DNA of 40,510 bases, from contig JALHRL010000029.1 of the NCBI GenBank assembly GCA_022841465.1, forward strand, positions 1-40,510, read 5' to 3'. Source of the DNA: Bacteroidia bacterium. Its GTDB lineage: Bacteria; Bacteroidota; Bacteroidia; B-17B0; Aurantibacillaceae. The translations under genes and the position numbers were made by a program. The notes beneath the pieces were generated by a model that worked only from the letters and a program-made list of their open reading frames with translations, did no database searches and was not told the origin of the DNA. Within the stretch, counting starts at the first letter, position 1, and every line of letters begins with the position of its first letter. Positions 14,792 to 34,232 of this stretch are shown in pieces.

Positions 14792-15400
14792 TTACATAAG
14801 CATTACTTCATGCTCCGCGCAATCAATACGAAGTTCTGATTTTTTAAGTGGGGCATTTAATAAATGGCAATAATGTTGCTCCTTTTTTAATTCGTGAAAG
14901 CGACAAGATAAACACATGCGGTTTATAGAAATAACACCAGTATTTTGAAGATTTGAAATTAAGCCAAGTAAACTAGAAAGCAAAAGCTCGTTTTGCGCAT
15001 TAGTTGAATTAGCTAAGGGCTCAAGAATTTTGTTTGCGAATAGCGACACCTTCTTCGCTAACAATCTCCCTGAATCAGTAAGTTTGATTGAATAACTTCT
15101 ATTGTCATCAGATTCAGTTTCTTTAATGATTAGTTTTTTACTCAATAAGGATTTTACAGAATCACTAATTGTTGACTTTGTCATATTAAACTCATTGGCC
15201 AAATGGCTAACTGTTCTCTTACCTGATTTATGGAATAAGCAAAAAATTAATATTTGCGTTTGTATCGGGCTTAAAGAATGTTCTTTACTTTCTTCCCATA
15301 ATAAAACTCTAAAAGCTTCAGAAATTCTTTCTAATGCCACTACTATTTTACTTTCAACACTTTCTTCTTGAAATTTATTATCGAAAACAGATCTCTTCAT
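14792..15400 (-). CDS. MarR-family regulator with C-terminal four-Cys motif (copy 1)
   Basis: 202 residues. A winged-helix MarR core (about 15-145) includes the recognition-helix region LANEFNMTKSTISDSVKSL and a DDNRSYSIKLT wing. Beyond the normal MarR end lies an added tail with C-x2-C-x11-C-x15-C (CLSC ... HYC ... RIDC). The second MarR gene in this window (18942-19538) has identical spacing. Four such cysteines are suited to holding zinc or an Fe-S cluster, which suggests a metal, redox or NO sensor (inference). It is the last gene of the operon starting at 16281, with its start directly abutting the previous stop, and probably regulates that operon. Confidence 0.85.
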   Translation of the reverse strand: MKRSVFDNKFQEESVESKIVVALERISEAFRVLLWEESKEHSLSPIQTQILIFCLFHKSGKRTVSHLANEFNMTKSTISDSVKSLLSKKLIIKETESDDNRSYSIKLTDSGRLLAKKVSLFANKILEPLANSTNAQNELLLSSLLGLISNLQNTGVISINRMCLSCRFHELKKEQHYCHLLNAPLKKSELRIDCAEHEVMLM

Positions 15401-15664
15401 TTAGTTGCAATTTTCCATTTCGTAAATATAATAACCATTTTTAATTATGGCATCTTCCCACATAGGTTTTATTGACTCTACGTGGCAAAAAGTACATTCT
15501 TTTGCTGTTAATGATTGCTCAGTTAGCCCTTTTGATGTTAAATATGCCTTGCCGTAAGCATATATAACTTCGCTGTCTTTTACTTCGGACGGTGCAATAA
15601 TATCAAAATGCATAACGGTGCCATCTTTTTTTGTTACATAAGTATCCCAAACGGCTATATTCAT
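15401..15664 (-). CDS. DUF2024-like protein, type a (copy 1)
   Basis: 87 residues, cytoplasmic, no signal peptide. It opens MNIAVWDTYVTKKDGTVMHF, which I recognise as DUF2024 family; the function of that family is unknown. A conserved ECTFCHVE segment (CxFCH) lies at about residues 56-63. The pattern resembles a c-type heme site, but the protein is not exported, so a metal- or thiol-based role is likelier. Paralog of the gene at 20960-21223. It sits directly before the MarR gene in the operon. Confidence 0.82.
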   Translation of the reverse strand: MNIAVWDTYVTKKDGTVMHFDIIAPSEVKDSEVIYAYGKAYLTSKGLTEQSLTAKECTFCHVESIKPMWEDAIIKNGYYIYEMENCN

Positions 15665-15716
15665 CTTATTAAATTTAAAATTGTGTTTATGTGAATTGTC
15701 TAGATTAAATTATTTT

Positions 15717-15980
15717 CTAAAACCCCCAATGTTTGAAAATTGAATATCCCTTCTCTTTTATTTCTCCTTTAACCTTTTCATTAGCAATTTCCATATGGCA
15801 AAAATCGCACTCCTCTGCACTAATTAATTTTTTAGCCATAATCCCCTCTTCTTTTAAGAATTCATTGCCAAATTGATAAATTATTTTTACATCCTTGAGT
15901 TCCGAAGGGACAATGATATCAAATTTTATGAGTTTCCCATCATCTTTTCTAAACACCGTATCGTATAATGATATTTCCAT
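15717..15980 (-). CDS. DUF2024-like protein, type b (copy 1)
   Basis: 87 residues from the preferred start at 15980; an upstream ATG at 16004 would add eight residues that its paralog does not share. It starts MEISLYDTVFRKDDGKLIKF and carries ECDFCHMEIA, the same CxFCH motif as the type a protein. It ends KHWGF, as does the type b paralog at 21322-21585. It is one half of a diverged gene pair (types a and b) kept together in both operons, so the two may form a heteromer (inference). Confidence 0.8.
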   Translation of the reverse strand: MEISLYDTVFRKDDGKLIKFDIIVPSELKDVKIIYQFGNEFLKEEGIMAKKLISAEECDFCHMEIANEKVKGEIKEKGYSIFKHWGF

Positions 15981-16014
15981 TTTCAAATTTTGCTTAAAAT
16001 GCATTTAAATGATA

Positions 16015-17801: not shown

Positions 17802-18155
17802 TTATTTTGATGTTGCTCTCACTCCAACAGCAAATTTTATTAAGGATTGTTTTTCTTCTGCTGTTAATTTTGCTTTTACAGCCATCACATCCACTATTTC
17901 TAATAATCTAGGCTCTGTATAAACCGTTACATCTTTGGTGCCGTGACACTTTGTACAAGCACCCGTGTATATGGAATGCCCTTTTTTCAATTCTTCCATT
18001 GTAGTATTCGGAAACCGGGTATTTACAGCGGTTAATTGTGCATCCATACTAGAATCAGTGGAAGCAGTGGAAGCAGTTGAAGTTGCAGCTTTTTTTGATT
18101 TACAAGCTACTGTTATTGAGATTAGTACTGAAGCAATTACTATTATTTTTTTCAT
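17802..18155 (-). CDS. c-type cytochrome lipoprotein
   Basis: 117 residues. A lipoprotein signal ends in ITVAC (lipid-anchored Cys18). A Ser/Thr/Ala-rich linker (20-40) leads to a small monohaem domain with C67-TK-C70-H71; Met91 is a possible distal ligand. It is therefore a membrane-anchored periplasmic electron carrier. It is sandwiched between DoxX and sigma genes and is probably expressed with them. The partner oxidase or reductase is unknown. Confidence 0.85.
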   Translation of the reverse strand: MKKIIVIASVLISITVACKSKKAATSTASTASTDSSMDAQLTAVNTRFPNTTMEELKKGHSIYTGACTKCHGTKDVTVYTEPRLLEIVDVMAVKAKLTAEEKQSLIKFAVGVRATSK

Positions 18156-18941: not shown

Positions 18942-19538
18942 TTATGAATATTCAAAATCCATACAGTCAATTCTAATGTCTTTTGTATCTAACTTTTGGT
19001 TGAGTAAATTACAAATATGAATTTTATTTTGATTTGCGTAATGTTTACAATTGAAACAAGTCCGCTGAACACTAATAACTTCTAGTTTATTTAATTTAAT
19101 TATTAGTGTGGAAATGTTCTGCCATAATACAACTTTATCTTTTTCATTTGCCTTAGCAATTATTGTAGTAAGCGGATTAGCATAGTTCTCAGTTTGGGTT
19201 ACAATTTTTCCCCCTTCTATTGTAAGTTGTATACTATAGCTTCTTGTGTCAGTATTGTCAGTATATTTTTTGATTAGTTTTTTTTGTTCTAAAACCTTTA
19301 TTGCATCACTGATGGTTGGCTTAGTGAAATTAAACTCTTGAGCCAAATAGCTTATTGTTGTTTTTTCTTTCGAATGGTGTTGTATAAAGATGAGTAGTTG
19401 AATTTGTATTGGGCTTAAACTATATTCTTTGGCTTTCTCCCAAAGTAGAATTCTGAACACTTGGGATAGGCGTTCAAGACCAGCAACTATTTTATTGTCG
19501 AGACTTGCATTTTGATTATCTAAATTAAATACTGACAT
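18942..19538 (-). CDS. MarR-family regulator with C-terminal four-Cys motif (copy 2)
   Basis: 198 residues, clear paralog of the gene at 14792-15400: same opening (LDNKIVAGLERLSQVFRILL), recognition region LAQEFNFTKPTISDAIKVL, wing DTRSYSIQLT. The tail has C-x2-C-x11-C-x15-C (CFNC ... HIC ... RIDC), with spacing identical to copy 1. It is the last gene of the second operon, 2 bp after the amidotransferase gene. The shared cysteines argue for a metal or Fe-S site under selection. Confidence 0.85.
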   Translation of the reverse strand: MSVFNLDNQNASLDNKIVAGLERLSQVFRILLWEKAKEYSLSPIQIQLLIFIQHHSKEKTTISYLAQEFNFTKPTISDAIKVLEQKKLIKKYTDNTDTRSYSIQLTIEGGKIVTQTENYANPLTTIIAKANEKDKVVLWQNISTLIIKLNKLEVISVQRTCFNCKHYANQNKIHICNLLNQKLDTKDIRIDCMDFEYS

Positions 19539-19540
19539 AC

Positions 19541-20236
19541 TTATTTTGTGGCTAAGTAGTTTAATAATTGAAACATTCTTTGATTATTATCTTTTAAAAA
19601 TTCTTTTTGGTTTGACATTTCTTGAACTGTCTGAATGTACTTTTCTGTTGTTAATTCTGATCCTCCAAAGATAATCATTTGTTTTAAAGAATTTTCAGTG
19701 ACTTCTAAGTGAAATTGAAGCCCTATCACTTTGTCACTGTATATAAATGCTTGATTCGCACAAGCCTCACTTGAGGCCAAAAGTGCAGCGTTTTGCGGCA
19801 AATCAAATGTGTCTCCGTGCCAATGAAAAACTGGGTAACACTTTTCGTTATTGAATAAAGGATTTATGATGGCTTCTGAAACATTTATAGGAAACCAGCC
19901 AATTTCCTTTTCCTTATTTGGATATACTTTTGCCTTTAATGCAGAAGCAATAAGTTGAGAACCCAAACAAATGCCAATTACAGTTTTATTTTGCTCAATG
20001 GCTTGTTTAATAAATTCTTTTTCTACTGTTAACCAACTGTATCTTTCTTGTTCATAAACCCCCATTGGACCACCTAAAATAATTAGCCAATCATAAGTAG
20101 AATGATTAGGTAATACGTAGTCTTCATAAAACTTGGATGATGTAATTTTATACTCTTTTTCTATAACCCATTGTGCAATACAGCCTAAATCTTCATAGGC
20201 AACGTGTTGTAAATAGTGTATTCTAAATGTGTTCAT
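19541..20236 (-). CDS. Class I glutamine amidotransferase (GMP-synthase-like)
   Basis: 231 residues, single-domain enzyme. The nucleophile is C90 in GICLGSQ, with H176 and E178 in LQFHLEVT completing the triad and LGGPMG forming the oxyanion region. Such stand-alone proteins release ammonia from glutamine or act as gamma-glutamyl hydrolases. The GMP-synthase PPi-loop partner domain is absent. Its start overlaps the stop of the YggS gene by 4 bp, so it is translationally coupled. Being embedded between thiol proteins and a MarR gene, a role on gamma-glutamyl compounds is possible but only inference. Confidence 0.85.
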   Translation of the reverse strand: MNTFRIHYLQHVAYEDLGCIAQWVIEKEYKITSSKFYEDYVLPNHSTYDWLIILGGPMGVYEQERYSWLTVEKEFIKQAIEQNKTVIGICLGSQLIASALKAKVYPNKEKEIGWFPINVSEAIINPLFNNEKCYPVFHWHGDTFDLPQNAALLASSEACANQAFIYSDKVIGLQFHLEVTENSLKQMIIFGGSELTTEKYIQTVQEMSNQKEFLKDNNQRMFQLLNYLATK

Positions 20237-20967
20237 TTAATGTCTTTTTGTTCATCCCAATAATAAGAATCAGGGTAAATTCGGCTCCCAAAAATGGCGG
20301 TACCTACTCTTACAATTGTTGCACCTTCTTCAATTGCAATTTCTAAATCGTTACTCATTCCCATTGAAAGTTCCATCATATCAACGTTTCTTAAAGCTAG
20401 TTCTGCAATTTCGTTTCTTATGTTACTTAGTAATTTAAAGCATTTTCTTGTTTTTTCTTTCTCTGAATTAAAAAGACCAATAGTCATTAACCCTTTTACT
20501 TTCAAGGTGTCATACTGAGAAACTTCTTTTGCAAACGATAAAGCTTTTTCAGGGCTCACGCCGAATTTACTTTCTTCATAAGAGGTGTTTACTTGTATTA
20601 AAACATCCATACTTCTTCCCTCAAATTGCAATCGGTTATTAAGTTTTTGAACTAATTCAATTCTATCTATAGATTGAATGCAATTAGCATATTTTAAAAC
20701 TTCCTTAATTTTATTGGTTTGCAAGTGCCCAATAAAATGAAACTCGACACTTTCATTTTTAAGTAATGTGTGTTTTTGGGATAGCTCTTGGATTTTATTT
20801 TCTCCAATAAGATTGTTTTCAAATATTAAAGCTTGTTTTATTATTTCGGCAGGAACTGTTTTGGTAGCCAATAGAAGTTTAACCTCATCACCACTTCGCC
20901 CAACTTTTAAACAAGCCTTCTCTATTCTTTTTTTAATTACTTCAATATTTATTGCAATACTATTCAC
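20233..20967 (-). CDS. YggS/PLPBP-family pyridoxal-phosphate-binding protein
   Basis: 244 residues, single alanine-racemase-like barrel. K36 in LLLATKTVPA is the PLP lysine; GENKIQE, HFIGHLQTNK, IQSIDR, GLMTIG, LSMGMSND and VRVGTAIFG are family signatures. YggS proteins help keep vitamin B6 and amino-acid pools in balance and have no known catalytic reaction. It overlaps the preceding DUF2024 gene by 8 bp and the amidotransferase by 4 bp. It may be a second YggS in this genome, moved into the stress operon. Confidence 0.93.
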   Translation of the reverse strand: MNSIAINIEVIKKRIEKACLKVGRSGDEVKLLLATKTVPAEIIKQALIFENNLIGENKIQELSQKHTLLKNESVEFHFIGHLQTNKIKEVLKYANCIQSIDRIELVQKLNNRLQFEGRSMDVLIQVNTSYEESKFGVSPEKALSFAKEVSQYDTLKVKGLMTIGLFNSEKEKTRKCFKLLSNIRNEIAELALRNVDMMELSMGMSNDLEIAIEEGATIVRVGTAIFGSRIYPDSYYWDEQKDIK

Positions 20968-21223
20968 ATCCTTGCATTTCTATAATATAATATCCTATTC
21001 GTTCGATACTTAAAACCATTTTGTCCGTTGCTTGCTCAATATGACAAAATTTACATTCTTTAGATGTTAAGGCTTGATCCCCTTGATTTTTTAATTTTAA
21101 ATAATCCTTACCAAAGGCATAAATTATTTTTTCATCTTTTATATGGTCAGGCGCTATAATGTCGAAATGCATTATGCTACCGTCCTTCTTTGTTACATAG
21201 GTGTCCCAAACTGCTACTTGCAT
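20960..21223 (-). CDS. DUF2024-like protein, type a (copy 2)
   Basis: 87 residues from ATG 21223; the frame is open to an ATG at 21334 but the extra 37 residues look like leader translation and are absent from copy 1. It opens MQVAVWDTYVTKKDGSIMHF and has ECKFCHIE (CxFCH), nearly the same as 15401-15664. The stop overlaps the YggS start, indicating coupling. Confidence 0.83.
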   Translation of the reverse strand: MQVAVWDTYVTKKDGSIMHFDIIAPDHIKDEKIIYAFGKDYLKLKNQGDQALTSKECKFCHIEQATDKMVLSIERIGYYIIEMQGCE

Positions 21224-21321
21224 TTTATTTGATTTTAATTTGTTAAATGTTGGTTGACTTGTTTGCGTTGAGTAAAACCAATTTATCATTGTTAGATAGG
21301 ATATAAGAATATTTATCATCA

Positions 21322-21585
21322 TTAAAACCCCCAATGCCTTAAAATAAAATACCCTTTTTTATTAATGTCACTTATTATGCTGTCGGATGCCACTTCCATA
21401 TGGCAAAAATCACACTCGTCAGCACTAATTAATTTCTTTACTAAAATGCCTTCTTGTTTTAAAAACTCATTACCATAAGTATAAATTTTATTTAAGTCTT
21501 TTAAAGATGCAGGAACAATGATATCGAATTTTACCATGTTACCATTATCTTTTTTAAATACGGTGTCATATACTGATACTTCCAT
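21322..21585 (-). CDS. DUF2024-like protein, type b (copy 2)
   Basis: 87 residues from ATG 21585, matching MEVSVYDTVFKKDNGNMVKF with the type b paralog at 15717-15980. An ATG at 21621 would add residues that the paralog lacks and would place the start inside a hairpin. CxFCH is present in ECDFCHMEVA and the end is RHWGF. The upstream hairpin (21604-21637) lies in its leader. Confidence 0.82.
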   Translation of the reverse strand: MEVSVYDTVFKKDNGNMVKFDIIVPASLKDLNKIYTYGNEFLKQEGILVKKLISADECDFCHMEVASDSIISDINKKGYFILRHWGF

Positions 21586-21603
21586 GCTATTATATTTTAT
21601 TTC

Positions 21604-21637
21604 CCTAAATGCACTAAACATAGTTAGTGCATTTAGG
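21604..21637. terminator. Perfect 14-bp stem-loop between operon genes
   Basis: CCTAAATGCACTAA and TTAGTGCATTTAGG pair perfectly over a 6-nt loop, between the stop of the 246-residue gene and the start of the DUF2024 type b gene. No T-run follows on the minus strand, so it may pause or process the transcript rather than end it. Confidence 0.55.
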
Positions 21638-22441: not shown

Positions 22442-22675
22442 TTAAGCTTTTACATCTGCCATAGATGCACCAAAATTAATGTGAAGCACATTACCGTTTG
22501 GCGTTACTAAAGCAGGAACAGATTTTACACCTGCCGCTTCAGCTGCTGCAATTTTAGATTTGTCATTACCTAAATGTACTATCTCTACATTTGCAGGATT
22601 GATTAAACTAAGGATGTCATGTTCTGCGCTTACACATACTGGACATCCAGCGTGATAAAAGATTGATTTGCTCAT
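22442..22675 (-). CDS. Mini-thioredoxin / glutaredoxin-like protein (copy 2)
   Basis: 77 residues from ATG 22675 (an upstream ATG at 22720 adds 15 residues which lie in the conserved leader). The active site is C11-PV-C14 in IFYHAGCPVC, with the cis-Pro loop GVKSVPALV. The last 30 residues are almost identical to copy 1. It is the first gene of the larger paralogous operon. Confidence 0.83.
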   Translation of the reverse strand: MSKSIFYHAGCPVCVSAEHDILSLINPANVEIVHLGNDKSKIAAAEAAGVKSVPALVTPNGNVLHINFGASMADVKA

Positions 22676-22712
22676 TTTTTTGTTTTTAAAGATTAATAAT
22701 TTGATTAATGTA

Positions 22713-22722
22713 AATTGCAATT
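22713..22722. promoter_or_regulatory. Conserved leader palindrome AATTGCAATT (copy 2)
   Basis: Same 10-bp palindrome as at 16322-16331, again just downstream of the -7 box of the mini-thioredoxin promoter. Confidence 0.4.
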
Positions 22723-24377: not shown

Positions 24378-25076
24378 CTACTTAGTCGTGTTTAAAATAA
24401 ATCCAACACCAAAAATATTTTCAATATTTAAACTAGGATCGTCTTTGAGGTATTTCCTCATTTTAGTAATAAATACATCTAAACTCCGGCCTAAAAAATA
24501 ATCATTCTCGCCCCAAATTTCTTTTAAAAGGTCTTCTCTTTTTACAACTTTATTTTGATGCAGGCATAAAAATCTAAGGATGTCACTTTCTTTTTCAGTA
24601 ATTCGCTTTGTTTTACCAGCAATGGTTAGGGATTGGTTGTTATAGTCAAACAGGTATTTCCCTAACGTGATTATTTCAATCGGAGCATTCTTTTTTTCTA
24701 AAGGCACCCTTCTAACAAGTGCTTTAATTTTCCACAGTAACTCTTCCTCATCAAATGGCTTACTGATGTAATCGTCAGCTCCAATGTCGTACCCCCTTAA
24801 CTTATCTTCCTTCAGCGATTTTGCAGTAATAAAAACAATAGGAATATTTATATCTCTAGATCTTATTTCTTTAGCTAAGGTAAAGCCATCCATTTTCGGC
24901 AACATAACATCTAATAAGCATAAACTATATTGATTTGCGTGAAACATTTTAACCGCTTGTTCCCCGTCCTTACATAATTTCACGTTAAATCCTTCCGTTT
25001 CTAGGTAATCAACAAGCAAGACTCCCAAATTGAGATCATCTTCAACAAGCAATATATTTAAGACTTCCTTATTCAT
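24378..25076 (-). CDS. OmpR-family response regulator
   Basis: 232 residues. Receiver domain (about 8-120) with D13/D14, phospho-acceptor D56 in LLDVMLPKMDG, T84 and K106 in YISKPFD. C-terminal winged helix (about 135-230) with ITEKESDILRFL and RSLDVFITKMRKYL. It overlaps the upstream kinase gene by 8 bp. A tandem of 11-bp-spaced repeats before the Cys-rich protein gene (26592-26632) is a likely binding site. Confidence 0.93.
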   Translation of the reverse strand: MNKEVLNILLVEDDLNLGVLLVDYLETEGFNVKLCKDGEQAVKMFHANQYSLCLLDVMLPKMDGFTLAKEIRSRDINIPIVFITAKSLKEDKLRGYDIGADDYISKPFDEEELLWKIKALVRRVPLEKKNAPIEIITLGKYLFDYNNQSLTIAGKTKRITEKESDILRFLCLHQNKVVKREDLLKEIWGENDYFLGRSLDVFITKMRKYLKDDPSLNIENIFGVGFILNTTK

Positions 25077-26322
25077 TGTTTAATGGTAATGTGATTGTAA
25101 AAATTGTTCCTTCACCAATCTTGCTGTGAAGTTCGATTATTCCCCCATGTAATTCAACAACTTTTTTAACGTAAGCTAATCCTAAACCAAATCCCTTTAC
25201 ATCATGTAAATTGCCTGTAGGGACTCTAAAAAACTTTACAAATATCTTATTTAAATATTCTTTTTCAATGCCAATTCCTCTATCCGAAACAGTGAGTATA
25301 AATTTTTGGTCACTATTTTTTGTTCCTATATTTATCGAAGGAGATTCTTTTGAATATTTTATGGAATTATCAATTAAATTACAAAGCACGTTGGTTAAAT
25401 GATTTTTGTCTCCTAAAATATAATATTTTGTAGCATTTAAGTCTAATTTTAGAACTCCGTGTTTATTTTCTATTTGAACTCCAATACACTTTACAGCCTC
25501 GTTAATTAAATGATGAAAATCTAAAGTAGTTTTTGTTAATGGTATTTCACCTCTTTCTAAAGCAGTCATACTCAAAACCTGCTCAACTTGAATTCTCAAT
25601 TTTTCGTTCTCTTGAAGTATAATTCCAGAGTAGTGTCTAATTTTGTCTTCCTGTTTAATATTCGAATCTTTTACCATCATTTTACTAGCTAAAGCAATAT
25701 TAGTTAATGGCGTTTTAAATTCATGGGTCATATTGTTTAAAAAATCAGTAGTATGCTCTGAAATTTTCTTTTCTTTAATTAATCCGAGAACGGTTCTCCA
25801 AAACATAAAAAGTACAACAATTATAAGTATCACAGAGGTGGTGAATAAACGACCCATTTCTGCAATAATAAATTGTTTTTTCTCCGGAAATATTAATTTA
25901 AGTTCTAAGCCATTTTTATTAGCAACCTCTTCTAAACGTTTCTTAAAGACATTGTGATAAATTACAATATCACCTGTGTTCGAATTTTCTTTAATCACTT
26001 CAAATGAATAATCAATATGAAAATTATAAAACTGCATATAATTTTTAAGGAGAGAATCTATCTTATTTATTTCACCCTCTCTCAATTCCAATTTACAATC
26101 GGCTCTGTTGTCTTTCATACAACAGCTGCCCATGTTCATACAAGCTTCTTTATCAGAACATAAAGCCTCTACAGTTTTTGAAAGAACTATATTTGCTTTC
26201 TCATTAAACAATTCCTCCTTAATTTGAGCTGTTTGAATTATCCAATTAACTTGTATAATCAATACTGCTACTAATGCAATTGAAGATATAATAACGAATA
26301 TAGTTGTTCTGTATAATTTCAT
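25069..26322 (-). CDS. Sensor histidine kinase with Cys/Met-rich periplasmic domain
   Basis: 417 residues. TM1 at about 8-28, periplasmic loop 30-158, TM2 at about 159-181, then a HisKA/HATPase core with H200 in NMTHEFKTPL, NLIDNSIKYS, DRGIGI and GFGLGLAYVKK. The periplasmic loop opens with a cluster of five cysteines (55, 61, 67, 68, 76) and three methionines (62, 64, 69) within 22 residues. This is unusual and fits metal or thiol-redox sensing. It is translationally coupled to the response regulator; the tautomerase gene starts the operon. Confidence 0.9.
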   Translation of the reverse strand: MKLYRTTIFVIISSIALVAVLIIQVNWIIQTAQIKEELFNEKANIVLSKTVEALCSDKEACMNMGSCCMKDNRADCKLELREGEINKIDSLLKNYMQFYNFHIDYSFEVIKENSNTGDIVIYHNVFKKRLEEVANKNGLELKLIFPEKKQFIIAEMGRLFTTSVILIIVVLFMFWRTVLGLIKEKKISEHTTDFLNNMTHEFKTPLTNIALASKMMVKDSNIKQEDKIRHYSGIILQENEKLRIQVEQVLSMTALERGEIPLTKTTLDFHHLINEAVKCIGVQIENKHGVLKLDLNATKYYILGDKNHLTNVLCNLIDNSIKYSKESPSINIGTKNSDQKFILTVSDRGIGIEKEYLNKIFVKFFRVPTGNLHDVKGFGLGLAYVKKVVELHGGIIELHSKIGEGTIFTITLPLNNE

Positions 26323-26328
26323 ATCTAT

Positions 26329-26532
26329 TTACTTACTTTTGTTTCTATGAACCGAAACTTGTTCTCCTGCAATACCCCAATTATCAATATCTACTTCATC
26401 AATTATTACAAATGTAGTTGCCGGGTTTTTGTTTAATACTTTTTGCAATAAAGTAGTCACTCCCTTAATAAGTTCAGCTTTTTGCTGTGTTGTAACCCCA
26501 TCTTTTGTTATTTTAATATTTACATAAGGCAT
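26329..26532 (-). CDS. 4-oxalocrotonate tautomerase-family protein
   Basis: 67 residues. It begins MPYVNIKITK, so Pro becomes the N-terminal catalytic residue after Met removal, as in all 4-OT enzymes. Length is typical. The in vivo substrate of such stand-alone tautomerases is usually unknown. It lies 6 bp before the kinase gene and probably shares its transcript. Confidence 0.85.
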   Translation of the reverse strand: MPYVNIKITKDGVTTQQKAELIKGVTTLLQKVLNKNPATTFVIIDEVDIDNWGIAGEQVSVHRNKSK

Positions 26533-26591
26533 ATCTCTATATTTTTATTTACAAGGCTAAATTAGACAATTTTCGTGTTTAAATGTGGTCG

Positions 26592-26632
26592 TTAACAAGT
26601 CATTAACAAGGTAATAACTTCTTAATAACAAG
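26592..26632. promoter_or_regulatory. Array of 11-bp-spaced direct repeats, likely response-regulator sites
   Basis: Units begin at 26592 (TTAACAAG), 26603 (TTAACAAG), 26614 (ATAACTTC) and 26625 (ATAACAAG). The exact 11-bp phasing, one helical turn, is typical of OmpR/PhoB-type regulators binding head to tail. It ends just before the -33 box of the Cys-rich protein gene, the place expected for an activator. Confidence 0.6.
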
Positions 26633-26659
26633 TTGGCTATCTATTAGGAAGTACATTTG
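26633..26659 (+). promoter_or_regulatory. Promoter of the Cys-rich secreted protein gene
   Basis: TACATTTG (26652-26659) matches the Bacteroidota -7 box TAnnTTTG exactly; TTGG at 26633-26636 is a likely -33 element. The start codon follows after 26 bp. Confidence 0.6.
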
Positions 26660-26685
26660 TCGTATAACAATTAAAAAAACATATT

Positions 26686-26928
26686 ATGAAAAAATTAATT
26701 TTAACATCTGTAGCTATTTTATTTATTGGTTTTACTGCTTTTGCACAAGACGGTAGTAAATGTACTAAGAAATGCGAAAAAAAATGTGAAACAAAAGAAT
26801 GTACTACTAAAGGTGAAAATTGCTCCAAAAAGTGCACTACAGACACTAAGTGTAACAAAGAGACAAACGCTAAAGCATGCGCAAAAGCTTGTAAATCCGA
26901 AACCGGAAACAAAGAAACAAAAAAATAG
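26686..26928 (+). CDS. Small secreted Cys/Lys-rich protein
   Basis: 80 residues. Signal peptide about 1-20 (ending AFAQ). The mature part has nine cysteines in about 60 residues, spaced KC-xx-KC-xx-KC with Lys, Glu and Thr between (SKCTKKCEKKCETKEC...). The arrangement resembles a metal-binding or metallothionein-like peptide in the periplasm. Its own terminator follows. It is divergent from the tautomerase/kinase/regulator operon and carries the 11-bp repeats before its promoter, so it is probably a target of that system, and its cysteines echo the sensor's. Confidence 0.82.
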   Translation: MKKLILTSVAILFIGFTAFAQDGSKCTKKCEKKCETKECTTKGENCSKKCTTDTKCNKETNAKACAKACKSETGNKETKK

Positions 26929-30253: not shown

Positions 30254-30709
30254 ATGAAAGAAACGAAAGAAGAAAAAACAGAACAAAAACAAAGCGGAAA
30301 TAACACCGATAAAAGTTTATCAGGAACAGATGCGGAAAAAGGTGTTTGGGAAAAAGCAGCAGAAACCATTTCCGGAGACAATAAATTGATGGGAACAGTT
30401 TTAAAACTCATACTAAGTCCAATCATGTTATTGGTTGGCGTTGGATTGTTGATTTATGCCTTTATTAAAATGAAAGGGCAAAAAGATGAAATAGAAAAAC
30501 TGAAAGCAGAAAACCTAAAGCTAAAAGAAGATTATATCGAGCTTGAAGAAGATTTTGAAAAAGTAAAGAAAAAGTATAAGAAGATTAAAACGTTGACGGA
30601 AACAGAATCGGAAAGCCCACTCTTAGGAATTGGCATTACTAATCATAAATCTATACTACCAATAAATCAATCGGAGAAAAAGAAAACATATGAAACCGCA
30701 TATCTATAA
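30254..30709 (+). CDS. Membrane-anchored coiled-coil protein of the element
   Basis: 151 residues. A charged N terminus (1-45) leads to one transmembrane helix (about 53-72, LSPIMLLVGVGLLIYAFIK) and then a long Lys/Glu coiled coil (about 74-118). No enzyme motif. It may tether or assemble something at the membrane. First gene of the element. Confidence 0.7.
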   Translation: MKETKEEKTEQKQSGNNTDKSLSGTDAEKGVWEKAAETISGDNKLMGTVLKLILSPIMLLVGVGLLIYAFIKMKGQKDEIEKLKAENLKLKEDYIELEEDFEKVKKKYKKIKTLTETESESPLLGIGITNHKSILPINQSEKKKTYETAYL

Positions 30710-30719
30710 AACTAAAGAA

Positions 30720-31007
30720 ATGGAAAATAAAATTATTGTAAAACGCTATAAAGTACCTGAAGATCTACTAATGGATATTTTACGCATTTTGTTTGGTAAT
30801 AATATCAAGCATAAAATTATCGGAATTCAGGAGCGACAAAACATTGTATTGCTAAATGTGAGTTTTGATTTAAACTATATTAAGAATGGAGAAGCCAAAG
30901 AAAACATGGAGGGCATATTAACTGATTACTGCGAATATATGAAAGGTTTGCTTGGTGATACAGTTTTGATGTTGGATGAAGAAGAAGATGATGAAAACGA
31001 ATATTAA
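30720..31007 (+). CDS. Unknown protein of the element
   Basis: 95 residues from ATG 30720 (MENKIIVKRYKVPEDLLMDI); an ATG at 30690 would overlap the previous gene by 20 bp. It ends in an acidic tail (DEEEDDENEY). No family recognised. Its small size and acidic tail would suit a DNA mimic or protein-binding adaptor, which is only a guess. Confidence 0.65.
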   Translation: MENKIIVKRYKVPEDLLMDILRILFGNNIKHKIIGIQERQNIVLLNVSFDLNYIKNGEAKENMEGILTDYCEYMKGLLGDTVLMLDEEEDDENEY

Positions 31008-31027
31008 CCAGATTAGAATTTAAAAGA

Positions 31028-32056
31028 ATGGAGAGCACCTGTTTATATTGTAAAGGTCATTTTACTGCAATACGGTCGAGTAAAAAATATTGTAGTGATA
31101 ACTGCAAGCAAATGGCATATTTTAAAAGAAACGGGTTGGTGCTTTCGGGAACATCGGAGGGAGAACCAAATTTACAAGTGCCTGTAGTTGGTGTAAAGTC
31201 TATAAACACTAATGAAGTTATCGTAAAATACGATAAAGAAAGAGATACCGTAAAATACGGTAATGAAGAGCTTAACGTAAAATATGATAAGGATAAACGA
31301 AGTGAATTTGAATTCGTACCGCTGGCTGATGCTGAAGAGGAAAACGAAGCAGCAGAAACAAATGAACTTAAAGAAGCTGTTAAAGAAGCTCGGAAAAATG
31401 AGCCAATTAGAAGTGTAGTAAAAATTGAAGAAGAACAGAAAGAAGAAAACGAACCACGTTACAAATGGATCAATAGTAAACTTATCACCTTAATCGAAAA
31501 GAAATACAATCAGAATTCCGGAGGCGTAAAAATGAAAGAGCCTTTTGAGTATTGGGAATACGAAGATGCAAAATATATTGTATGGGTTAATGAACGATTT
31601 CGTTGTTTATCTGAGAGTTTAATTAAGCTAAGTAATTACAGTCGGATTGATCGTCACACCTTGCTTTGCATAACCGATGCGTTTAAACAATTGGTAACGA
31701 GTGCAACATTTAACCAGTTGCCAAATGATTACCCTTTTAAAGAATTCATAATTGAACTCTTTCTCGGATTAAATAAAATTCTTACTGATAAAGTGCATTT
31801 AAATATGCTCTCCTTTAAATTAACTAAAGAAAGAAAATCACAATTGATTTGTATTAGGCATCAATTAATGCTGCACACACCTGAAATAAAATTCACCGAA
31901 ATAGATTTTGTTGAAGAAAAAACACAGGAAGAAAAAGTGCAGCAATTAATAATCGGTAAAAACGAAACAGAAAAAAAGAATGATTGGAGATACAGATACG
32001 AATCATTAAAACGACAAGGATTATTAAATAACCAACAACAAAATAAAGCAGAATAA
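31028..32056 (+). CDS. Zinc-finger protein of the element with 9-residue repeats
   Basis: 342 residues. The N terminus has C5-x2-C8 and C22-x3-C26 (CLYCKGHF ... KKYCSDNCKQMAYF), a zinc-ribbon like those of small DNA-binding Bacteroidota proteins. Residues about 64-90 are three 9-residue repeats (VKYDKE-like), encoded by 27-bp repeats that are palindromic in DNA (31219-31289). An acidic linker (about 95-140) and a helical C-terminal domain follow. It may be the element's DNA-binding control or replication protein. Confidence 0.7.
   Translation: MESTCLYCKGHFTAIRSSKKYCSDNCKQMAYFKRNGLVLSGTSEGEPNLQVPVVGVKSINTNEVIVKYDKERDTVKYGNEELNVKYDKDKRSEFEFVPLADAEEENEAAETNELKEAVKEARKNEPIRSVVKIEEEQKEENEPRYKWINSKLITLIEKKYNQNSGGVKMKEPFEYWEYEDAKYIVWVNERFRCLSESLIKLSNYSRIDRHTLLCITDAFKQLVTSATFNQLPNDYPFKEFIIELFLGLNKILTDKVHLNMLSFKLTKERKSQLICIRHQLMLHTPEIKFTEIDFVEEKTQEEKVQQLIIGKNETEKKNDWRYRYESLKRQGLLNNQQQNKAE
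31219..31299. repeat. Three 27-bp tandem repeats, each with a 17-bp palindrome, inside a gene
   Basis: Palindromes TATCGTA-AAA-TACGATA (31219-31235) and TACCGTA-AAA-TACGGTA (31246-31262) are perfect; the third at 31273-31289 is 5 of 7 per arm. The period is exactly 27 bp. Lone GTAAAATAC cores also occur in the element's leader. Confidence 0.75.
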
Positions 32057-32280
32057 CATGAAACAGAAAATAAAAATCCGATCCCCTTGCTCATTATAGC
32101 AGAATAAAGTGTTCCGAAAAATGGTCATAAAACGATACCAACATACAGGCGTATTTAGGGCGTATTATGGTGATTTCTTTATTCCAAAAGATGTACGTAA
32201 ATTGGCTATTATATTGATAATCAATATACTGCAATAATAAAAAAGATGTTAAACGAATTGCGAGAAAGCAAAAAAGAGAA
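32057..32280. other. Spacer before the recombinase operon
   Basis: 224 bp without a convincing gene. It holds one 19-bp palindrome (32210-32228). A minus-strand open frame here (32094-32318) is a by-product. Confidence 0.4.
32210..32228. promoter_or_regulatory. Perfect 19-bp palindrome before the recombinase operon
   Basis: TATATTGATAATCAATATA has 9-bp arms around one base and lies 52 bp before the 86-residue gene. It is a candidate operator or recombinase binding site. Confidence 0.55.
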
Positions 32281-32541
32281 ATGAAAAGTGAGAGCGAAAA
32301 TAACAAAGGATTAACCATTGAAAAATTAAGAATGATAAAAGGTTATGAAAGTGTAAGCGATGAACAAGCAAACAAGATTGTATTATCAATCAAAAAACTG
32401 GCTGTTCTTTTATGCGAACATCTTTCAAAACTTAAAAAGAAAAAAGAGGTGGATGAATTAAATGATTCAGGAGGTGCGAAAATAATTTCGTTGAATACTG
32501 AAAATAATAATTCAGAAATTGAATACAGAAAACAAGCGTAA
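32281..32541 (+). CDS. Small hypothetical protein before the recombinase
   Basis: 86 residues, mostly helical, starting MKSESENNKGLTIEKLRMIK. No cysteine cluster or membrane segment. It lies 30 bp before the recombinase gene and is probably in one operon; a recombination directionality factor would be expected at this place, but nothing in the sequence proves it. Confidence 0.6.
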   Translation: MKSESENNKGLTIEKLRMIKGYESVSDEQANKIVLSIKKLAVLLCEHLSKLKKKKEVDELNDSGGAKIISLNTENNNSEIEYRKQA

Positions 32542-32571
32542 AAAATAAATAATAAAAAGAAAGGAGGCAAA

Positions 32572-34182
32572 ATGACAGAAGAACAAATAATCGACAATCG
32601 GTTTGGACGCTTTGGAAAAAAGGAAGTAAAACAGTCCACATCTAATTTAGCGGTAATGTACACAAGGGTTTCCGGCAAAGGACAGTTTGATAAAAACGAG
32701 TCTTTGGAAACCCAGCGAAAATCAATTGAAGAATATGCAAAGCGCAATAATCTTACAATTGTTTCAGCATTTGGTGATACTTATGAAAGTGCAAAAACTG
32801 ATGCACGGAAAGAGTTTCAGCGAATGTTAAGTTTTGTAAATACAAGCAAAGGAAAGATAAGCACCATTTTGGTTTACAAAATGACACGATTTAGCAGAAC
32901 GGGAGGCAAGGCTATTTCCATTGCTGATGAACTAAGAGAAAAACATGGGGTTCATATTAAAGCAGTAACAGAACCAATCGACACATCTAATCCAAACGGA
33001 GTTTTATTTCATGATATGCAATTGTTATTTGGGCGTTGGGATAACGAACAACGAAAGCAAGTGGCAATGGCAGGTATGAAAGCTAAGTTTGAAAAAGGAA
33101 TTTGGGTGGTTAAACCACCACAGGGTTATGATATTGTCAGAACAAGTGGTGAACGTAAAATTGTAGTGAATGCAGATGGAAAGAAAATTAAAAAAGCATG
33201 GGAGTGGAAACTAATGGGCATGAAGAATGAAGAAATTATTTTGAAACTTCAGGCTATCGGAGTAAAAATGTACAAACAGCAATTACATAAAATTTTCATT
33301 AACCCTTTTTATTGCGGATTAGTATCGCATGGAATGTTGAATGGAAAAGTAGTTGAAGGAGTGCATGAAAAAATGATCTCTAAAGAAACCTTTATGAAAG
33401 TGAATGAGGTAATTTCATCTTCAACTAAATTCGGAGTGCCACATAAAGCAGAGGATGTAAATATTCCATTAAAGGTTTTCATTAAATGCTCGGATTGTAA
33501 TCAGCCCTTTACAGGCTACATTGTAAAGAAGAAGAACTTGTACTACTATAAGTGCAGAACAAACGGCTGTAAGTGCAATAAAAGCGCAAAAGAAATGCAT
33601 CGTTTGTTTTCAGAGGAACTTGAAAAATACGAAGTAAAACCTGACTTGACCGAAGCAATTAAAATTGAATTAGAAAGCACCTACCATGAACTGAATAAAG
33701 ATTCAGTTGAAAAGGAGGTGATCCTTAAGGCGAGAATTGTCGAACTAACTGCGGATATTGAAACACTCGAAGAGAAGCACTTCATAAAAGAGGAGATGCC
33801 CAAGGAAACCTACGAACGTTTTAGAGTAAAATACGCTAAGGAATTTGATAAAATCCGAAAGGAAATGGCGACTTGTGGAATTTCCATTTCGAACCTTAAA
33901 GAAATGATAAATGAAGCAATAATTCTTTGCCAAAACCTGCGCCAACTGTGGCAAGATGGCGGGATAGCATTGAAAGAAGGATTGCAAAACTTGATGTTTC
34001 CTAACGGTCTGGTGTATGACAAGAAAAATGGGGCATTTCGAACCTCTGAAATCAATTTCATAATCGCACAAATCGCCCGACACACGGGCGATTTGGCGTT
34101 AATTAAAAAAGGACTTAGTTCTCTATTTGAGCCTAAGTCCCTTTCAGCGGAGAAAGAGGGATTCGAACCCCCGGACCTGTAA
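32572..34182 (+). CDS. Large serine recombinase
   Basis: 536 residues. Catalytic Ser34 in YTRVSGKGQ; MTRFSR and the helix of the resolvase domain follow (to about 160). A recombinase domain (about 175-290: PPQGYDI ... INPFYCGLVSHGML) and a zinc ribbon (C306-x2-C309 in IKCSDCNQPF with CRTNGCKC) precede a coiled coil. It cuts and rejoins attachment sites to move the element. The last residues (SAEKEGFEPPDL) are encoded by the tRNA-Ser gene read backwards, so integration or crossover took place at the tRNA end and rebuilt the reading frame's end. Confidence 0.93.
   Translation: MTEEQIIDNRFGRFGKKEVKQSTSNLAVMYTRVSGKGQFDKNESLETQRKSIEEYAKRNNLTIVSAFGDTYESAKTDARKEFQRMLSFVNTSKGKISTILVYKMTRFSRTGGKAISIADELREKHGVHIKAVTEPIDTSNPNGVLFHDMQLLFGRWDNEQRKQVAMAGMKAKFEKGIWVVKPPQGYDIVRTSGERKIVVNADGKKIKKAWEWKLMGMKNEEIILKLQAIGVKMYKQQLHKIFINPFYCGLVSHGMLNGKVVEGVHEKMISKETFMKVNEVISSSTKFGVPHKAEDVNIPLKVFIKCSDCNQPFTGYIVKKKNLYYYKCRTNGCKCNKSAKEMHRLFSEELEKYEVKPDLTEAIKIELESTYHELNKDSVEKEVILKARIVELTADIETLEEKHFIKEEMPKETYERFRVKYAKEFDKIRKEMATCGISISNLKEMINEAIILCQNLRQLWQDGGIALKEGLQNLMFPNGLVYDKKNGAFRTSEINFIIAQIARHTGDLALIKKGLSSLFEPKSLSAEKEGFEPPDL
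34069..34095. repeat. 11-bp perfect hairpin in the recombinase 3' end
   Basis: CAAATCGCCCG and CGGGCGATTTG around a 5-nt loop. There is no T-run after it, so it is not a usual terminator. It may be part of the recombination site. Confidence 0.5.
34105..34140 (-). terminator. Terminator of tRNA-Ser
   Basis: On the minus strand GGACTTAG pairs with CTAAGTCC and six T residues follow, 8 nt beyond the tRNA 3' end. It lies within the recombinase reading frame on the other strand. Confidence 0.8.
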
Positions 34183-34232
34183 CAGTCAACAGTTTTCAAG
34201 ACTGCCGCATTAGACCACTCTGCCATTTCTCC
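34148..34232 (-). tRNA. tRNA-Ser (anticodon TGA)
   Basis: 85 nt with discriminator G. Acceptor stem GGAGAAA / TTTCTCC, D arm with TGGCAGAGTGGTCTAATGCG, anticodon loop CTTGAAA centred on TGA, long variable arm, and a T arm GGGGGTTCGAATCCC. The long variable arm marks it as a class II tRNA. It serves as the integration end for the element to its right-hand reader's left. Confidence 0.95.

Follow-up and report, generated by a model that had tools for sequence, protein, structure and literature searches.

A sensor histidine kinase and a small, secreted, cysteine-rich protein encoded divergently from it in a member of the Bacteroidia appear to form a matched pair: across relatives of the kinase, Cys-rich sensors and Cys-rich divergent genes occur together, a coupling that is well supported by the sequence comparisons. 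As the cysteines of both proteins co-occur in relatives, kinase and small protein probably sense and soak up the same metal or oxidant, and the kinase very probably switches on the adjoining small-protein gene. The chances are about even that the genes make up an autoregulated, self-contained two-component module with one main output in this genome, its signal being a thiophilic metal or oxidant and its product a thiol buffer in the periplasm. A sequence-only reading had already treated kinase and small protein as one unit, and this view is upheld by the conservation of the divergent gene order and of the four-repeat box in the spacer, and by the sensor cysteines that are matched to the divergent gene.

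Gene layout and promoter region

The window, i.e. the complete stretch of 40,510 nucleotides that was analyzed, contains the features compiled in Table 1. The order of transcription on the minus strand is tautomerase, kinase, OmpR-type regulator; the secreted-protein gene lies on the plus strand. Kinase and regulator genes overlap by 8 bp, the H-, N- and G-box motifs of the kinase reside at positions 198, 315, 347 and 377, and the motifs of both kinase and regulator are complete. The top NCBIfam model for the regulator is RprY (NF051850) with 275 bits, under the cut-off of 370, and the protein is thus not taken as an RprY equivalog. Assignment of the pair to CzcS/SilS/CopS and CzcR/SilR/CopR was likewise rejected (TIGR01386, 99.5 vs 292.55 bits; TIGR01387, 125.5 vs 279.2 bits).

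Table 1. Features of the proposed module, with positions in the window
Feature	Position	Strand	Remarks
Response regulator, OmpR/PhoB type (receiver and winged helix), RprY-like	24378..25076	-	PF00072 and PF00486; phospho-acceptor D56
Sensor histidine kinase, 417 aa	25069..26322	-	H200; PF00512 and PF02518
Codons of the periplasmic Cys/Met patch, residues 55-76	26095..26160	-	C55, C61, M62, M64, C67, C68, M69, C76
Tautomerase-like gene, 67 aa, head of the operon	26329..26532	-	PF01361, 71.9 bits; TIGR00013, 84.7 bits (cut-off 56.9)
TAATTTAG, possible degenerate -7 element of the tautomerase-kinase-regulator operon	26557..26564	-	Proposed by eye; one base off TAnnTTTG
Four tandem 11-bp direct repeats TAAC(N7), candidate regulator-binding box	26593..26629	+	
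TACATTTG, TAnnTTTG -7 element of the small-protein promoter	26652..26659	+	22 bp after the box
Small secreted protein, 80 aa, Lys-rich	26686..26928	+	9 Cys; signal peptide ends near A20 (by eye)

Kinase and secreted protein had been placed by the sequence-only reading on the two sides of a shared upstream region. The divergence holds, with the correction that the tautomerase gene, and not the kinase gene, comes first on the minus-strand side. A tblastn comparison with the other kinase loci placed this gene in the window's own DNA alone, which suggests that it was inserted locally between the promoter and the kinase gene. In the relatives' spacers inspected, the kinase gene itself borders the repeat-bearing region, unlike in the window, where the tautomerase gene lies between spacer and kinase and positions 26533-26685 are thus the promoter region of the tautomerase-kinase-regulator operon.

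Of 54 kinase loci, 45 contain all four repeats (expectation in resampled sequence: none); the full set is missing in L053, L054, L063, L073, L084, L087, L094, L097 and L098. TAnnTTTG is the -7 element of Bacteroidota; of the 45 boxed loci, 36 have it exactly 22 bp past the box, 5 have it at 21 bp and 4 have none within reach. The distance from box to kinase start codon is 38-58 bp throughout these loci. A kinase-side -7 element (CAAAnnTA, other strand) was seen in 41 of the 45 (spacers L049-L102). For 32 of these the element precedes the start codon of the kinase by 8-10 bp, a position from which a nearly leaderless kinase mRNA is predicted. No exact CAAAnnTA was found on the operon side of the window's spacer.

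The box is retained where the divergent gene is not Cys-rich, which argues that it belongs to the kinase-regulator pair. Within the window's 3.77-Mb genome it occurs at a single site with up to one mismatch allowed. A stricter version is present in 20 of 395 genomes of the class, beside the kinase in 16 of the 20 and away from it in G025, G064, G069 and G207, and a control pattern read backward matched in four of the same 395 genomes (G069, G091, G280 and G310). On both counts, chance may explain as many as roughly one in five of such matches. A wider search for a regulon with only three repeats gave matches in 17 of 18 genomes. Beyond the modules' own boxes, most of these sites show the bare TAAC pattern only and several share identical, unrelated spacer letters; the extra sites were therefore rejected as regulator targets, a judgement made from the letters of the matches.

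A second four-repeat box is located in the Cys-type genome G333, just upstream of genes (L278, 2553-3468) for a DUF4920 lipoprotein and a CxxCH protein. Its first 26 bases are the same as in the main box, and it is possibly a second regulator target. A search of the open-access literature for DUF4920 gave no papers. The single-target claim is restricted to the window's genome, as G157 and G018 too contain second four-repeat sites.

Elsewhere in the window, two look-alike sets (14792-16004 and 18942-21621, by eye) each combine a MarR-type regulator with two small Cys-bearing DUF2024-like proteins, the domain check having covered one regulator and one DUF2024 protein, and a 92-aa open reading frame at 22442-22720 has a weak thioredoxin-like match. 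In the region 30254-34232, a serine recombinase look-alike (32572-34182, by eye) extends over the end of an oppositely oriented tRNA-Ser gene (34147-34232), an arrangement like that of an integrated element.

Sensor cysteines and Cys-rich partner genes in relatives

Five of the seven cysteines of the kinase (residues 55, 61, 67, 68, 76, 279 and 314) fall within 22 residues, a clustering with P = 0.00035 under random placement (20000 draws). The five Cys and three Met counted earlier within residues 55-76 proved exact on recheck. The patch lies between two transmembrane segments recognized by eye from the sequence (TM1, about residues 8-29; TM2, about residues 157-178), and a periplasmic location follows from this assignment. 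Variation within the kinase is concentrated in the sensor loop, the length and cysteines of which differ among relatives, and its flanks are conserved. AlphaFold models of the sensor (pLDDT 63.5) and of the small protein (pLDDT 44.7) have low confidence and are too poor for any structural argument to be drawn from them.

A search with the sensor in 41 genomes (its own and 40 relatives) gave matches in 20 of them at E <= 0.001, in ten besides its own at E < 1e-20. The scan of a genome collection provided 55 kinase loci, mostly from metagenome-assembled genomes of Bacteroidota/Bacteroidetes, and in an even draw across the class the kinase subfamily (E <= 1e-50) is present in 23 of 395 genomes. 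A divergent Cys-rich protein like that of the window is encoded in 10 of the 55 loci, about 140 bp from the kinase. Elsewhere, genes upstream within 4 kb encode a secreted family of unknown kind (16 loci) or a lipoprotein with one CxxCH (11 loci), which is directly divergent in some cases, e.g. L074, L081 and L082. A short CxxCH lipoprotein of similar general type is also encoded in the window (17802-18155), with Pfam cytochrome matches below cut-offs. Inspection by eye of four module neighbourhoods (L279-L282) revealed no recurring gene for metal transport or oxidant defence.

On a tree of 51 full-length kinases, computed without the patch columns, at least four patch cysteines are found in 10 kinases, all 10 with the Cys-rich partner, and the partner accompanies only one of the 41 others (L080). 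Partner status in this tree and in the 55-locus set was assigned by a Cys filter plus inspection by eye. When distant lineages are included, giving 69 kinases, all 17 partner loci have at least four sensor cysteines, and the count stays at three or fewer in 51 of the remaining 52. The class draw yielded 22 readable loci, for which a rule combining Cys number with Cys density decided on partners: a Cys-rich divergent gene is present in 12 of 13 loci with at least four sensor cysteines versus 1 of 9 with at most two (Fisher P = 0.0002, lineages treated as independent). Both the four-Cys threshold and the Cys-rich rule were fixed after the first loci had been seen.

Single positions differ in their distribution. 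Among the 69 kinases, C55 occurs in 11 of 17 partner loci and C76 in 12 of 17, each in 0 of 52 others, and C68 in 10 of 17 versus 1 of 52. C61 (15 of 17 partner loci, 37 of 52 others) and C67 (13 of 17 and 22 of 52) are widespread across the subfamily.

The one clear exception to the rule is L164 (= L046), which has five sensor cysteines with several SCMP motifs, no Cys-rich neighbour and only two repeats in its spacer. Its divergent neighbour, by eye, resembles phosphoenolpyruvate carboxykinase. L080 (= L227) has a partner and two patch cysteines, its sensor containing five in total with three outside the patch; L239 likewise has a partner and one patch cysteine, the remaining ones being located elsewhere in the sensor. 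The Cys-rich rule also flagged L228, a borderline lipoprotein beside a sensor with two cysteines that is counted as flagged in the 22-locus table and as non-partner in the 69-row table, and the outgroup L242; a looser rule flagged the CxxCH lipoprotein at L203. Truncated kinases (L060, L062, L077, L099 and L103) were left out of the tree and of the set of 69, as was L234 from the latter as a duplicate of L082. Also read, and placed outside the 69, were L191, L197 (with only 10 bp of upstream sequence), L038, L045 and repeat matches from genomes already included; L038 and L045 have few sensor cysteines and, by eye, no Cys-rich small gene. L229 and L245 were left out of the class-draw readings.

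Partner status changes four times on the tree of 51 kinases and five times on that of 69, and the sensor-Cys label three or four times. Independent-pair tests, with two pairs on well-supported branches, are not significant, and with only four to five partner changes the trees do not statistically show repeated co-evolution.

Cys-rich divergent genes also occur in other families, in five distant lineages (L147/L235, L216/L224, L219/L231, L218/L233 and L167/L239), the kinases of which share only 22-37% sensor identity with that of the window. All four repeats are present in L235 alone among these five, and their small proteins count as partners by Cys content, not as homologues of that of the window. 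No repeats were found upstream of five more distant kinases (L242, L243 and L246-L248), and the divergent gene of L242 is of another kind though flagged by the Cys rule.

The small secreted protein and known systems

The nine cysteines claimed for the secreted 80-residue protein are indeed present (C26, C30, C34, C39, C46, C50, C56, C65 and C69), and its start looks like a signal peptide by eye. A search with this single sequence in the 41 genomes returned only itself. The protein is nevertheless no orphan, a reading that was dropped when a profile built from 11 family members matched in genomes of other families. The proteins of the 10 related loci start with MKK, the 11 members contain 8-12 cysteines, and their alignment shows few conserved positions in the mature part besides Cys and Lys. 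In 395 genomes the profile matches in 45 at E <= 0.001. Only the seven strong matches (E < 1e-19) are counted as family members, since the coverage of weaker ones is often largely limited to the signal-peptide part; all seven adjoin the kinase just downstream of a four-repeat box. One weak match (E 5.3e-4), next to the kinase in G197, was entered as a Cys-rich partner by its own Cys content.

Neither Pfam nor NCBIfam contains a family for the window's protein, which was therefore not assigned to the ZraP/CpxP family; the single Pfam match among the 11 members (E 0.085) is to an unrelated family and at chance level, and Foldseek with the model gave nothing below E 0.3. Metallothioneins carry their cysteines mainly as CxC and CxxC. 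Among 93 pairs of neighbouring cysteines in the 11 members, 32 are CxxxC and none is CxC or CxxC, and 0 of 2000 shuffles reach either the CxxxC excess or the CxC/CxxC absence. Such spacing speaks against a classical metallothionein, a reading that was rejected. With cysteines spaced like helix turns, the protein would fit either an array of thiols of the Cu(I) type or a helical chain laced with disulfides. Csp1 carries CxxxC, and the Csp family (DUF326 of Pfam) was not matched at E <= 0.1 by any of the 11 members, so that the small protein is not regarded as a Csp. Csp1 and CutF resemble it as exported Cys proteins. For CxxxC, a role as Cu ligand is described in Sco/SenC chaperones and considered putative in CutF (PMC8456105, PMC7558416).

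By analogy, the architecture of the module is like that of ZraP/ZraSR from E. coli, built from unrelated parts. In both cases a two-component operon is divergent from the gene for an exported protein. In ZraSR the main site of the regulator is the shared zraP/zraSR spacer, according to PMC8249747, which also cites ChIP-seq work that adds 25 targets; in the module the site in the spacer is deduced from conservation. Differences concern the tautomerase gene at the head of the window's operon, the regulator (NtrC type in ZraSR, OmpR/PhoB type with only its two Pfam domains here) and the exported protein, ZraP being a periplasmic metal-binding protein and the window's a short Cys/Lys-rich chain. 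The likeness to RprX/RprY consists of the nearest regulator model and the adjacency of kinase and regulator genes; the excerpts of RprY accounts consulted (PMC6032018, PMC3646045) mention no Cys-rich partner. Searches of open-access literature on RprY/RprX and on Cys-rich proteins plus Bacteroidetes kinases, covering titles and abstract openings, gave nothing on the module.

Alternative readings and proposed working of the module

A first alternative, less likely than not, is that the small protein acts mainly as a feedback accessory of the kinase, in the manner of CpxP, ZraP or MgrB, its cysteines pairing with the extra ones of the kinase via a bridging metal or a mixed disulfide and docking switching the kinase. 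Direct contact predicts that C55, C68 and C76 should be almost confined to loci with the partner, as is the case, but a shared ligand gives the same pattern without contact and the mature small protein is poorly conserved. A precedent exists in MgrB, described in PMC10576120 as a small protein that depends on PhoPQ, has two essential cysteines in the periplasm and inhibits the kinase PhoQ. The putative likeness is that of a small Cys protein under its cognate system acting on the sensor kinase; MgrB, however, is membrane-anchored with two conserved cysteines, whereas the window's protein looks secreted, has more of them and is divergently encoded.

It is rather unlikely that the system is a purely redox-responsive one, in which the periplasmic cysteines would make or lose disulfides with the thiol-disulfide state of the envelope (HOCl, peroxide, failed oxidative folding), the small protein would be a sacrificial thiol/disulfide buffer and metals would act indirectly. 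The presence of C61 and C67 throughout the subfamily, whatever the divergent gene, agrees with it, as do the 11 loci with an upstream CxxCH (cytochrome c-like) lipoprotein, also thiol- or redox-linked, and the tie of RprY from P. gingivalis, a member of the regulator's wider family, to oxidative stress (PMC6032018, PMC3646045). The extra cysteines with neighbouring Met, however, suit a soft-metal site at least equally, and knowledge on RprY may not carry over to a regulator that scores under the model's cut-off. Improbable, finally, is a merely structural, disulfide-bonded loop associated with the small gene by shared ancestry only, that gene having stayed beside these kinase branches: the few label changes on the trees, the varying loop length and the Cys-rich loop of L164 without partner are in line with it, but Cys-rich divergent genes also lie beside the distant kinases, in other families, and the conserved box links both genes in the main clade.

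For the autoregulated module, the extra Cys and Met are consistent with a thiophilic metal or oxidant as signal, and we lean slightly towards a metal, a soft one such as Cu(I) being favoured. A thiophilic metal would bind to the periplasmic Cys/Met, or an oxidant would form disulfides there, and kinase activity would change. The phosphorylated regulator would then bind the four TAAC repeats, a site the geometry of which is given by conservation, and would activate the small-protein promoter plus its own operon. The many closely spaced thiols of the exported small protein would buffer the same ligand, and the signal would be turned down. Scavenging is the role we infer for the small protein, with feedback on the kinase equally possible.

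More tentatively, and with less than an even chance in our view, the module may exemplify a class of Bacteroidota sensors in which kinase thiols and the thiols of the divergent output evolve as a matched set. C61 and C67 would provide a basic response, extra cysteines would be gained with a secreted protein serving as ligand sink and co-receptor, and the output gene (Cys-rich protein, CxxCH lipoprotein or others) would be swapped under a largely unchanged four-repeat operator. If the module itself works as proposed, it would be an envelope circuit of Bacteroidota for thiol or soft-metal stress, small enough to move as one unit of gene, operator, kinase and regulator, with a built-in prediction of which sensor cysteines accompany which output. 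The strong box makes the circuit findable in other genomes, and a generic sensor kinase and a Cys-rich protein with no assigned function become a testable sensor-effector pair.
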